DNA from: Haloplasmatales bacterium 4B
GTDB taxonomy: Bacteria > Bacillota_I > Bacilli_A > Haloplasmatales > Haloplasmataceae
DNA: 64,000 bases
Assembly (NCBI GenBank): GCA_003586005.1
Contig: NSKI01000003.1
Location: forward strand, 1 to 64,000
Direction: 5' to 3'
Of this stretch, positions 38,451-43,654 are shown one piece after another (positions within the stretch are counted from its first letter, which is position 1; each line of letters opens with the position of its first letter). The translations under genes were made by a program, and so were the position numbers. The notes beneath the pieces are model-generated. The model had not been told where the DNA came from. It searched no databases and saw nothing but the letters and a program-made list of their open reading frames with translations.

Positions 38451-41400
38451 TTATTTTACCAATTTATTCATAATATTAATTACTTTGTTTATCTCAAGTT
38501 CACTATCACGCCACCAGTCGCATCCCCAGATTCGATGGATTTCCCAACCATGACTTTCTAAATATTTTTGACGATGATAATCGCGTTCTTTAATAGAATT
38601 CATATGCTTCTTACTATTGTCCAGTTCTATTCCTAGTATATAACGATTTGATAATTTATCTACTATTGCAAAATTGATTTTATGTATTCCCGTACCTACA
38701 TTGCGTTCCACGTCAAAGCCACTATTAACTAATTCATTAAAAACACTTTCTTCAAACATACTATAATCTTCATTTATATTAACGTTAATATGGTCTGATA
38801 AACTATATAGTATTTTTTGAGTAGTATCCTGATCATCTTCATTAACAGCCTTAACATATTCTAAATAGCTTCTTAATAATTTAGGACCTCTATTTTTTAA
38901 ATCATCAACATTCAGTTCAAATGGTTCTATTGAAGTAACAACATATATTTTTTTCTTGGCCCGACTTATTGCGACATTTAAGCGATTTTCACCACCATCA
39001 TTATTTAACCAACCGAATTGCCTAACAATCCGATTATATTCATTTGGCGCATAGCCGATAGAAAAGATAATAATATCGCGTTCATCCCCCTGAACATTTT
39101 CAATATTTTTAACGAATAATTGATCTTTTGCTTCTCGAACTCTTTCACTAGCGATAATATTATTAAATTTAGAGTTATATAAACATTCTTCTTCTATCTT
39201 ATCTAAGATTAAATCTTTTTGTGTCGAGTTAAAAGTTATAATACCAATTGTTTCATCAGTTCTTTCACTAAATATATTTTTAAGCAAAATAATAATTTCG
39301 TTTGCTTCAGCTTCATTTTTTCGATCAATCCATCGACCATTAACTTTTACTCTTTCAATAGGTCTACTATTTGAAAGCTGAGGATTTGGACAAACATGTA
39401 GCTTACCTTCATAGAAAGCATAATTAGAAAACGCGATTAATTCTTCATATTTTGAACGGTAATGATAATTTAACATTACTTCATGATAGCGGTGTTTCGC
39501 TAAATCTAATAAACTTTCTTCTTCTAACACTCCACTATATTCATCATAATCAGCTTCTTCACTATCAATTCTTCCTAAGCCAAATTTAGATGGTCGTAAC
39601 TGTTTACTGTCACCTGCAATTATTACTTTTTTGCCACGATATAAAATTGGAATTGCATTTTCGATATACATTTGTGAAGCCTCATCAAAGATGATTATAT
39701 CAAAGATGGATTCTTTCATAGGTATTAATTCTGATACACCTTCGGGTGTTAACAACCAAACATAAACACTATTAAACAACTCCAAATTAAATTCTTTTAT
39801 TAATTTAGTAATTGACCATTTTCGTTTATTCTCGCATTTTCTTTTTAATTCATTTAAGCGCTTTGATTGCTCATTAAACACAGATTGAATATTGTCTTGT
39901 AAATAATTATACAAACACTCAAAAGTTAAACGTTCCTTTTCTAATGATAAATTAGTAATTTTATTTCTAATATCATGATATCTTTCAGAAATAATTAAAA
40001 TATTATCATATTTTTGTTCATATTCTATTATTTCGACAGCAGTAAATAAATCAATTAAATACTCATTTACTTTAGGAAAGGGAATATTGAGTTTTTTAGC
40101 TAAATAAAAACAATATTCGAAATATCTCTTTTCAATTAAACTTAAACTGTCATACACGTTTTTATTAAAAATATATTTGGGATAGGCTTCTATTGCCTTC
40201 ATGAACAAAGAAACATCTTCATAAATTGCTGTTTTTACTTTTTTCCGATGTTTTCCACCAAGATTCATTGTTAAAGCTTTTATTTCCTGATTTAATTCTT
40301 TGTTTTTTTGATTTAAACGAAATTTCGTAATCCAGCCAAACTTATTATATAAATCAACATAAAAGGGTATTTCATAAAAAGTTTTCGGTTGAACATACAA
40401 ATCTGTTTCATTAACATCTTCTTTAAATAAAGCATATATTTTTTCATATTTTACATCTTCTTTATAAGCTAGTAAATTTAAATAAAGTTGATTATTTTGA
40501 AACATTTGTCTCAAACTTATCAATTGTTCAAGGGTAAAACGATGATTAAATTTACGATGATTAATTTCTTTAAATAATCTTTCAATATCAAGGTCTTTTA
40601 AATCAAGTTTTCGAGAATTTTGATACATTTCCCGTAAGCTAGCATCAAGTTTTGTTTTACTATCCAGTAACATTTCTAAATCATTTAATTTGTCTAATTG
40701 AATATTTATCTCTGAAGCTTTTTCATTTATTTTTTCTTTATTTACAACTAATGAATCATCAAAGTCTAATATTGATAATAGTTGTTCATAAAATAATTCT
40801 TTGTTATTTGGATCATCTATATATAATACAAAATTGGCGATTTTCCCTAAACGATTATAAATTACATCAAGTGCTGTTTTCTTTTCTGAAACAATAAGAA
40901 CTTTTTTATCATGCAAAACAGCTTGTGAAACTAAACTTGTAATAGTTTGTGACTTACCTGTTCCTGGAGGACCTTGAATTACCATAGCATCTTTTACTTC
41001 AATATTTGCTAATACTTTTTCTTGTGAGTAATTTAGTTCATTGATGTAAAATAGTTGATTTTCATCGGGATTGTCTGCTGATTCAATTTGGTTTCCATTA
41101 CTATTAATATCATCCATACCAACAAATAAATCCCTTGCTAAGTGACTAATCGTTTTATTATCGATTATATCACTGAAATCCCTTTGAATCGCATTACTAT
41201 AAGAAGGAAAAGCACCTAAAACACAATAACCTTTTAATTGTAAATATGGATCATCATACATTGGAAAGTTTAAATTGGTTGTATTATGAAAAGGTTCCAC
41301 AGTGATACTTTCTTTGTTTTTAATCAAAACATTATGTTTTCTAAAAAATGATATCGCATTATCAATAAAGGCTTTTGTCATATCTTCAACAACATTATCT

Positions 41401-42149
41401 GTTACAACTTCATTTTTATTATTAAATTTATTATTAGCAAGTACAATAGTTGAATTATATAAAATATCCCTGCTTTTATCAAAACGTAATCGATATTCAT
41501 TATTCACTACATCAATTTGAGCTGGAAATAAACATAATGGCGCTTTAATCTTAAATTCACTATATAACTTACCCTCAACATATGGGAACGCTAAATAAAG
41601 CGTCTCTTGACCCTTTTCAATTCGCACAGTTTCTGTTGACCGATATAAAGCTTTAATCGCATTATACTCATCAACAGCTTTTAAATTATTTTTATCATAA
41701 CTTACTTTAGCAATCGTATATTGTCTTGAATCTTCATTAATAAATGAGCTTATTATTTTATCAACATTTTTTAACCTTGTTAAATCAAAAGCGGTTTTAT
41801 TTGTAAGCCGATTTGTATACAATAAACGATTTCGCTGATTTATATTAACCAATTTATTACTTAACTTTTGGAGAATCTCAATTTCTTTATTATTACAACG
41901 TGAATAAGAACTAGAATACTGATTTACAACATTTAAAAACCTTTCTGCATATTTTTCCACAAAGGTATCACCAACACCACGAATTTTCTTAAAGTCAGAT
42001 ACACATCCAGGCTTTAATTTTACAATCGCATTAATTACATCATCACTACAAACAACAACGCGACTATTTTTCTTTAATCTATTTCTAAAATTCTCATTTT
42101 TTATTTTATCTCTTAATGATACTAATTGACTAAATAATTCTTGATCCAT
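38451..42149 (-). CDS. Large HRDC-DUF4011-SF1 helicase-DUF559-like nuclease
   Basis: A 1232-residue protein. Residues about 2-75 look like an HRDC domain (SDDVINAIVKLKPGCVSDFK, IRGVGDTFVEKYAERFL). Residues about 100-330 begin with INQRNRLLY, the start of DUF4011-type regions. A superfamily 1 UPF1/Dna2-like helicase follows: Walker A GPPGTGKS at 393-400, a long helical insertion, Walker B FDEASQM with AGDSKQLRPS (about 840-865), NYHYRS, and the motif V/VI region NVQGDERDIIIFS and NVAISRAKKKIYVV. The last 85 residues (GIELDNSKKH, YHRQKYLESHGWEIHRIWGC) resemble DUF559/Vsr-like PD-(D/E)XK nucleases. It stands alone next to a Cas9 remnant. A role in defence against foreign DNA is inference; general DNA repair is possible. 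Confidence 0.85.
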   Translation of the reverse strand: MDQELFSQLVSLRDKIKNENFRNRLKKNSRVVVCSDDVINAIVKLKPGCVSDFKKIRGVGDTFVEKYAERFLNVVNQYSSSYSRCNNKEIEILQKLSNKLVNINQRNRLLYTNRLTNKTAFDLTRLKNVDKIISSFINEDSRQYTIAKVSYDKNNLKAVDEYNAIKALYRSTETVRIEKGQETLYLAFPYVEGKLYSEFKIKAPLCLFPAQIDVVNNEYRLRFDKSRDILYNSTIVLANNKFNNKNEVVTDNVVEDMTKAFIDNAISFFRKHNVLIKNKESITVEPFHNTTNLNFPMYDDPYLQLKGYCVLGAFPSYSNAIQRDFSDIIDNKTISHLARDLFVGMDDINSNGNQIESADNPDENQLFYINELNYSQEKVLANIEVKDAMVIQGPPGTGKSQTITSLVSQAVLHDKKVLIVSEKKTALDVIYNRLGKIANFVLYIDDPNNKELFYEQLLSILDFDDSLVVNKEKINEKASEINIQLDKLNDLEMLLDSKTKLDASLREMYQNSRKLDLKDLDIERLFKEINHRKFNHRFTLEQLISLRQMFQNNQLYLNLLAYKEDVKYEKIYALFKEDVNETDLYVQPKTFYEIPFYVDLYNKFGWITKFRLNQKNKELNQEIKALTMNLGGKHRKKVKTAIYEDVSLFMKAIEAYPKYIFNKNVYDSLSLIEKRYFEYCFYLAKKLNIPFPKVNEYLIDLFTAVEIIEYEQKYDNILIISERYHDIRNKITNLSLEKERLTFECLYNYLQDNIQSVFNEQSKRLNELKRKCENKRKWSITKLIKEFNLELFNSVYVWLLTPEGVSELIPMKESIFDIIIFDEASQMYIENAIPILYRGKKVIIAGDSKQLRPSKFGLGRIDSEEADYDEYSGVLEEESLLDLAKHRYHEVMLNYHYRSKYEELIAFSNYAFYEGKLHVCPNPQLSNSRPIERVKVNGRWIDRKNEAEANEIIILLKNIFSERTDETIGIITFNSTQKDLILDKIEEECLYNSKFNNIIASERVREAKDQLFVKNIENVQGDERDIIIFSIGYAPNEYNRIVRQFGWLNNDGGENRLNVAISRAKKKIYVVTSIEPFELNVDDLKNRGPKLLRSYLEYVKAVNEDDQDTTQKILYSLSDHINVNINEDYSMFEESVFNELVNSGFDVERNVGTGIHKINFAIVDKLSNRYILGIELDNSKKHMNSIKERDYHRQKYLESHGWEIHRIWGCDWWRDSELEINKVINIMNKLVK

Positions 42150-42449
42150 ATTTTCACCTCATTTCAATACTAGTATATTTTATCATAATTTAATTAATAA
42201 AAAAAGAAACAATAAATTGCTTCAATAAATATTATTTTATTGATATGTCGAATATTATTGAATATTATATTTTTATACAATATATTACATAGTTTATTAC
42301 TAAAAAGAGGTATTATTGCAACTAATGTTGTTTTTGCTTCAATTATCATTAACACTAATTTTAAAAACTTATAGATTAAACTAAATTAGCTGGTGATAAT
42401 TATATTAATTTACTACATTTACCATACATAAAATTAAAGAGTACTTAAA

Positions 42450-42659
42450 CTATTCTTCTTTTGAGTTAGTACCAATAATAGCTTTAGTTGATATTTTTGA
42501 TTTAGCTTCAATATTGTTTTCGTTTTCTACGTTATGAATACATCTTCTTTTAGCCAAATGATATAATACTATTGCAAATTCTTCACTACTTAATTTATTC
42601 GATAATCCTCTTACTCTTAAGTTAAAAGGCGTCGTCAAATTACATTCGAAATCAAAATT
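42450..42659 (-). pseudogene. Cas9 remnant (region between RuvC-I/bridge helix and REC lobe)
   Basis: Frame on the minus strand from about 42659: FDFECNLTTPFNLRVRGLSN, KLSSEEFAIVLYHLAKRRCI, HNVENENNIEAKSKISTKAI, IGTNSKEE, stop. This matches the conserved Cas9 block 'NPYELRVKGL..KLS.EEFA.ALLHLAKRRG.HNV....... ELSTKEQI..NSK', closest in my memory to compact type II-A/II-C Cas9 such as that of Staphylococcus aureus (about residues 98-160). A TAG stop follows, no start codon is visible, and nothing else of the 1000+-residue protein remains, except perhaps a YHQL segment near 42395. No cas1, cas2 or repeat array is present. The rest of 42150-42449 has no supported gene. Confidence 0.72.
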
Positions 42660-42689
42660 GTTTTTAATAATTGAGTTTTTTTATTATTT

Positions 42690-42716
42690 ATATAAAAAAT
42701 GGACTATATGTCCATT
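42690..42716 (-). terminator. Terminator overlapping the end of ldh
   Basis: Minus strand hairpin AAAATGGAC-ATATA-GTCCATTTT followed by TT. The ldh stop codon lies within the loop. Confidence 0.8.
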
Positions 42717-43654
42717 TTTCCAATAGATTCCCTAATTACTTTTGCACTATCTTTAAACTTATCTTGATCAGTTTTACTCATATGAATTTTTAGAACCTCT
42801 CTAACACCATCTCGATTAATAATTGCTGGCATTCCTATATATAAACCATCAACATCATAATAGTTATCAATATATCCGCTTACTGGTATAATACTATTTG
42901 CATCATTGAAGATAGCTTTTGTTATATGACATAGTGCCATTCCAATTCCATAATATGTCGATTTTTTATACTCAATAATTTTATATGCTGCATCACGTAC
43001 ATCAACATAAATCTTCTCTAAATCCTCTAATTTGTATTCTTTATGCTCGCTAACTATATCAAGTAGTGGTTTAACCCCAACATTCGCATTACTCCATAGT
43101 GGAAATTCGCTATCCCCGTGTTCACCAACTATATAAGCATGAATACTTTTACTATCAATTTTGAGATAATCTGACAAGAGATAACGTAGCCTTGCTGAGT
43201 CAAGTGATGTTCCTGACCCAAAAACTTGTTGTTTTTCAAGACCTGAATACTTGTAAGCAACATAAGTCATTATATCGACTGGATTCGTAGTGACTAAAAT
43301 TATCCCATTAAAACCACTAGACATTATACTATCGACAATTTGCTTAATAATTCCAGAATTTTTTTTCAACAAATCAAGCCTAGTTTCTCCTTCTTTTTGT
43401 GCTGCTCCAGCAGTAATTACGATAAGACTTGCGTCTTTACAATCACCATAACTCCCAGCGTATATCTTCATGTTTTTAGGTGCAAAGGCAACACCATGAT
43501 TTAAGTCCATTGCTTCGCCTTCAGCTTTTTTCGAATCTTTATCAATTAACACTAATTCATCACAACCACCTTGATTTAGTAATGAGTAAGCATAACTCAT
43601 TCCTACAAAACCAGCACCAATTAATACTACTTTTCTTGTTTTATCACTTTCCAT
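42704..43654 (-). CDS. ldh: L-lactate dehydrogenase
   Basis: NAD-dependent enzyme that reduces pyruvate to L-lactate. The 316-residue protein has the GAGFVGMSYAY nucleotide fold (13-23), Asp38 in LIDKD, Gln86 in AQKEGETR that favours pyruvate over oxaloacetate, and the catalytic His179 in VGEHGDSE. The C-terminal half has YGIGMAL. It provides a fermentative NADH outlet beside the hydrogenase. It is a single-gene unit. A convincing Rex box was not seen in its upstream 60 bp. Confidence 0.96.
   Translation of the reverse strand: MESDKTRKVVLIGAGFVGMSYAYSLLNQGGCDELVLIDKDSKKAEGEAMDLNHGVAFAPKNMKIYAGSYGDCKDASLIVITAGAAQKEGETRLDLLKKNSGIIKQIVDSIMSSGFNGIILVTTNPVDIMTYVAYKYSGLEKQQVFGSGTSLDSARLRYLLSDYLKIDSKSIHAYIVGEHGDSEFPLWSNANVGVKPLLDIVSEHKEYKLEDLEKIYVDVRDAAYKIIEYKKSTYYGIGMALCHITKAIFNDANSIIPVSGYIDNYYDVDGLYIGMPAIINRDGVREVLKIHMSKTDQDKFKDSAKVIRESIGKMDI

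Follow-up and report, generated by a model that had tools for sequence, protein, structure and literature searches.

SaCas9-related type II systems have been gained and inactivated in low-G+C bacteria of the Mollicutes, and of 21 systems in the survey drawn on here, at least 8 are predicted to be inactivated or degraded (PMC6882279). The locus described here carries a Cas9 remnant between ldh and a helicase-nuclease gene in a draft genome of 2.26 Mb (77 contigs, listed as 100% complete). It lies within a 64-kb window, the whole stretch of DNA that was analysed, and its features are collected in Table 1.

Table 1. Features of the interval between ldh and the helicase-nuclease gene, with the flanking genes, in window coordinates.
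Feature	Position	Strand	Basis or remark
Helicase-nuclease (HRDC, DUF4011, AAA_11/AAA_12, REase_MTES_1575)	38451..42149	minus	Downstream neighbour, outside the fossil
Helicase-nuclease upstream region	42150..42223	minus	Alignable with 4/4 relatives; low-coordinate edge of the extra DNA
Remaining extra DNA, about 18% G+C	42224..42449		No detectable homology, Rfam match or stable fold
In-frame TAG; intact Cas9 proteins continue here	42450..42452	minus	Homologue comparison
Cas9 remnant, 76 stop-free codons	42453..42680	minus	SaCas9-type Cas9 homology, about profile positions 82-158
ldh (name from the first-pass annotation)	42704..43654	minus	Upstream neighbour; 68-77% identical in 6/7 other family genomes

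Identity and extent of the Cas9 remnant

The ORF reported in the first-pass annotation is present at 42450-42638 on the minus strand (TTG start, 62 aa), and the stop-free frame that contains it is longer. In phmmer comparisons, solved SaCas9 in the PDB matches the 62-residue ORF with E = 6e-11 and the 76-residue frame with E = 7e-11; residues 85-143 of entry 7el1 and residues 88-146 of entry 5axw align with fragment residues 15-74 (E = 7e-11 for each). The PADLOC Cas9 models match the fragment with E values down to 7.9e-7, and TIGR01865 matches it with E = 5.5e-9 and 34.8 bits, under the whole-protein cut-off of 100. A Cas9 profile built from 18 proteins scores 51.7 bits on the fragment, compared with a maximum of 7.9 bits among 1000 dinucleotide shuffles of the region (six frames each) and with 7.0 bits at the second-best site in the 64-kb window. 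Because these scores lie far above those of the shuffles and of the second-best site, the homology is real, and the fragment is Cas9 by descent. A Pfam search of the 62-aa ORF gave nothing meaningful (best match Suv3_N, E = 0.17). The "open frame 1409 aa" that was printed for the TIGR01865 match was taken to be a tool artefact, since stops occur in all three frames. The initial identification of a Cas9 fossil is upheld by the profile search that had been proposed as its check, the best matches being neither to an unrelated family nor at background level, and the estimate of about 65 matching codons is superseded by the 76 codons of the stop-free frame.

Of 395 genomes of the class, 35, this one included, have a match to the fragment with an E value no higher than 0.001, and the open frame here is the shortest among them (76 aa vs 219-1376 aa in the others). 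As a single query, the fragment gave no match in genome contigs, viral contigs, or phage or plasmid records; an alignment query of the genome contigs returned 16 loci, the best-scoring of which are from Terrihalobacillus insolitus (46%) and Aquibacillus sediminis (43%; both values refer to tblastn segments). The 18-protein profile comprises the sequences over 900 aa, namely 14 of these 16 loci and L036-L039; the 882-aa L053 and the 291-aa L060 were excluded as too short, and L040 and L007-L010 are likewise not part of it. In a joint alignment, the Cas9 proteins of A. sediminis and T. insolitus are the closest, with 43% identity over 74 and 75 residues, respectively, and none of the homologues found exceeds 47% identity across the full fragment. 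A tree of 24 sequences and the fragment joins the fragment with these two proteins with 98% support, a placement that calls for caution because its signal comes from 76 residues alone and the fragment branch is long. The tree includes L091, a broken frame of 878 aa, and L094, which has a long branch. In it, L038 is separated from L057 by branches of zero length and L050 from L051 by almost none, so that the rows of the profile are not independent. The L091 Cas9 (genome G178), ranked near the fragment by HMMER, is encoded in two frames, one of 878 and one of 232 aa, and this split may reflect a pseudogene or a code in which TGA is read as Trp. The open frame runs to 1057 codons in the cas9 gene of T. 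insolitus (L045) and to 1071 in that of A. sediminis (L046), as against 76 in the fragment, and whereas cas1 and cas2 follow the T. insolitus gene, the fragment is accompanied by neither.

What survives is a small internal part of the gene, about 7% of it, drawn from a profile of 1070 positions. SaCas9 has ~1053 aa, and the fragment lacks the remainder, including the nuclease domains; with no RuvC, HNH, bridge helix, or PAM-interacting domain, it is not a functional Cas9. In the alignment, the Arg-rich segment of the homologues, which we take to be the bridge helix, sits just upstream of the fragment's first residue and is absent here, and the fragment itself presumably represents the start of the REC lobe. 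The first-pass annotation had described the segment as lying around the bridge helix, a location that the alignment revises; its statement that the rest of the gene is gone agrees with the near-complete absence seen here.

The reading frame bears further marks of decay. Translating past the TAG improves the score by one or two bits at best, and with the Terrihalobacillus Cas9 as query weak similarity runs through this codon to 42441. No in-frame ATG was found in the remnant, and no purine-rich ribosome site was found before either of its two in-frame TTG codons. The truncation, the in-frame TAG, and the lack of any usable start seen together identify the fragment as a pseudogene. The glycine of the LAKRRG motif, conserved in all 24 of the homologues examined, is Cys in the fragment, so that the substitution already noticed in the first reading of this locus is real. 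Key residues are mostly kept; of the eight columns labelled "invariant," one (Arg in the homologues and Lys here), lying in the poorly aligned first residues, was left unused. The fragment region scores 64.6 bits, at the low edge of the 64.7-110.1 bits of the 18 homologues, each of which was scored against a profile built without that sequence, and a frame open over 76 codons was matched by none of 2000 shuffles of the fragment. Because 76 codons are free of stops and most key residues are kept, the remnant is either fairly young or slowly eroding, and it is less worn than would be expected of a very old fossil.

Genomic surroundings

No other piece of Cas9 was found in the genome, in which TIGR01865 and an intact Cas9 query match this place alone. 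Cas1 and Cas2 family searches of the 2.26-Mb draft genome gave no match; among 14 control genomes, the Cas1 search matched 9 and the Cas2 search matched 7. A RuvC_III search of the same genome carries little weight, as its controls gave no match. No closely spaced direct repeats, and hence no CRISPR array, were found in the 64-kb window, and the leftover repeats for which the first-pass annotation had suggested looking were likewise not found in it. The components that would define a type II system, cas1 and cas2 in the genome and a nearby array in the window, are therefore lacking. Rfam gave no match in 42100-42760, and the region folds no better than shuffles, both being weak tests for a tracrRNA given that this RNA diverges too fast. 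The earlier observation that no array, cas1, or cas2 is nearby is accurate; of the putative complete type II system whose loss at this locus was claimed along with it, a piece of cas9 is all that is seen.

The Cas9 profile matched two of the eight family genomes, this one and G005 (below the cut-off); an intact Cas9 over the cut-off was found in none of the eight, and the fragment was found in none of the other seven. No genome of the same genus is among the family relatives listed for comparison. The G005 match (L012) is a 380-aa frame that covers Cas9 profile positions 544-649 alone, below the cut-off and outside the fragment's segment, and is possibly, at a guess, an IscB-like or HNH nuclease.

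The helicase-nuclease gene lies between ldh and tmk in five of the eight family genomes (the present one, G001, G003, G004, and G006), and the order ldh, helicase, tmk, holB is found in the last four of these. In G005, ldh adjoins tmk without the helicase-nuclease; G002 stops at a contig edge, and G007 has no ldh match. The shared gene order argues that the helicase-nuclease is a stable resident with no sign of a worn-out island, and the gene looks vertically inherited. A defence island, in the sense of a variable defence cluster that differs between relatives, is not what is seen here, and the "worn-out defence island" envisaged in the first-pass annotation is not supported, given this synteny. 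The C-terminal half of the helicase-nuclease resembles anti-phage Hhe and ProA, with NCBIfam scores of 379 and 516 bits that are far under the cut-offs.

The gap between ldh and the helicase gene, otherwise short, holds extra DNA in this genome. Measured from the last aligned ldh residue to the first aligned helicase residue, the gap spans 557 bases here vs 88 in G003, 92 in G001, 149 in G006, and 391 in G004. The extra DNA amounts to roughly 465 bp (about 42224-42690, the upper edge set by eye), and a six-frame search of it revealed no Cas9 beyond the one frame. A 21-nt direct repeat, considered as a second copy of the fragment, is a chance match, since 225 of 1000 shuffles gave an equally good alignment. 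On the helicase side, the ~74 bases before the gene align with four relatives, each at a score that 0 of 300 shuffles reach; on the ldh side, no alignment above chance with the relatives was obtained. A hairpin followed by a T-run is visible by eye at or just past the ldh stop here and in three of the four relatives. Aligning the region to relatives, as had been proposed, thus recovered the helicase-side edge in all four and a full locus in none, each of them being without the Cas9 piece. In G004, which belongs to another genus, the gap contains a different relic (L042:320-523), a 68-codon frame that by itself matches no Pfam family. Across 40 residues it shares 50% identity with a G001 protein, a 302-aa ORF for an Rce1-like CAAX protease. 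With the Cas9 piece here and the CAAX protease fossil in G004, gene remnants have accumulated in the ldh-helicase gap on at least two occasions.

Origin of the remnant and comparison with known systems

Whether a whole gene was lost or a short piece captured, the remnant is very probably a dead Cas9 scrap. We infer that a SaCas9-like cas9 was probably gained in this lineage and then inactivated and almost wholly deleted, leaving a functionless remnant. The gene would have arrived by horizontal transfer in the ldh-helicase gap, co-oriented with its neighbours and after the split from the other sampled genera, and would later have been inactivated and nearly all deleted. Left over would be the 76 codons from the presumed start of the REC lobe and about 230 bp of unrecognizable A+T-rich DNA. 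It is plausible that a complete gene or system, perhaps with a tracrRNA, cas1, cas2, and an array, once stood at this place; that no tracrRNA, repeat, or second Cas9 piece backs a former full system here counts against it. Points that weigh against the account of gain and loss as a whole are the frame, unbroken over its 76 codons, the want of any homologue with more than 47% identity, and a 77-contig assembly compared with relatives that include none of its own genus.

The same scrap could have been left by an unlikely, though serious, alternative in which illegitimate recombination of incoming DNA brought in no more than a small part of a foreign cas9 and neither the complete gene nor a type II system was ever present. 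Such a capture would account for the detection of this one segment of the profile, for the ~230 bp of extra DNA without Cas9 similarity, for the failure to find cas1 and cas2 in the genome or an array in the window, and for the fragment's occurrence in no other family genome. The orientation shared with the neighbours and the location immediately after the ldh stop codon and its hairpin, however, fit deletion of a resident gene too, and as a general expectation so small an internal piece seems a rarer outcome of transfer.

The open frame and its mostly conserved key residues would also suit a small gene still in use, in which about 76 residues of Cas9, taken from where the REC lobe starts, had been domesticated. 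Expressed from an unrecognised start, the product would have a role of its own; it might, for instance, bind RNA or interfere with incoming Cas9. This reading is very improbable in view of the missing ATG and ribosome site, the loss of the invariant Gly, and promoter-like matches at chance level (8 vs a mean of 7.2 in shuffles), and the piece recurs neither in the seven other family genomes nor, as a single query, in the phage, plasmid, viral, and genome collections. An assembly chimera or contamination, to which a draft in 77 contigs might be prone, is scarcely credible, as the piece lies inside a contig of 127,880 bases with flanking genes in the family-typical order and has 17% G+C at third codon positions vs 18% in the neighbouring genes.

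Gain of a SaCas9-like cas9 followed by its near-total loss would be of a kind already known, as decayed SaCas9-related systems have been described in the Mollicutes (PMC6882279). The present locus contributes a single further case of Cas9 loss, positioned by synteny, in a family whose 8 genomes yielded no intact Cas9 over the cut-off, and it indicates that this lineage met a SaCas9-like gene. Apart from that encounter, it is an ordinary gene relic, the product of an everyday kind of event. Whereas the Mollicutes loci are described, in the part of the survey drawn on here, as degraded systems (PMC6882279), the locus in this genome consists of a lone 76-codon piece.
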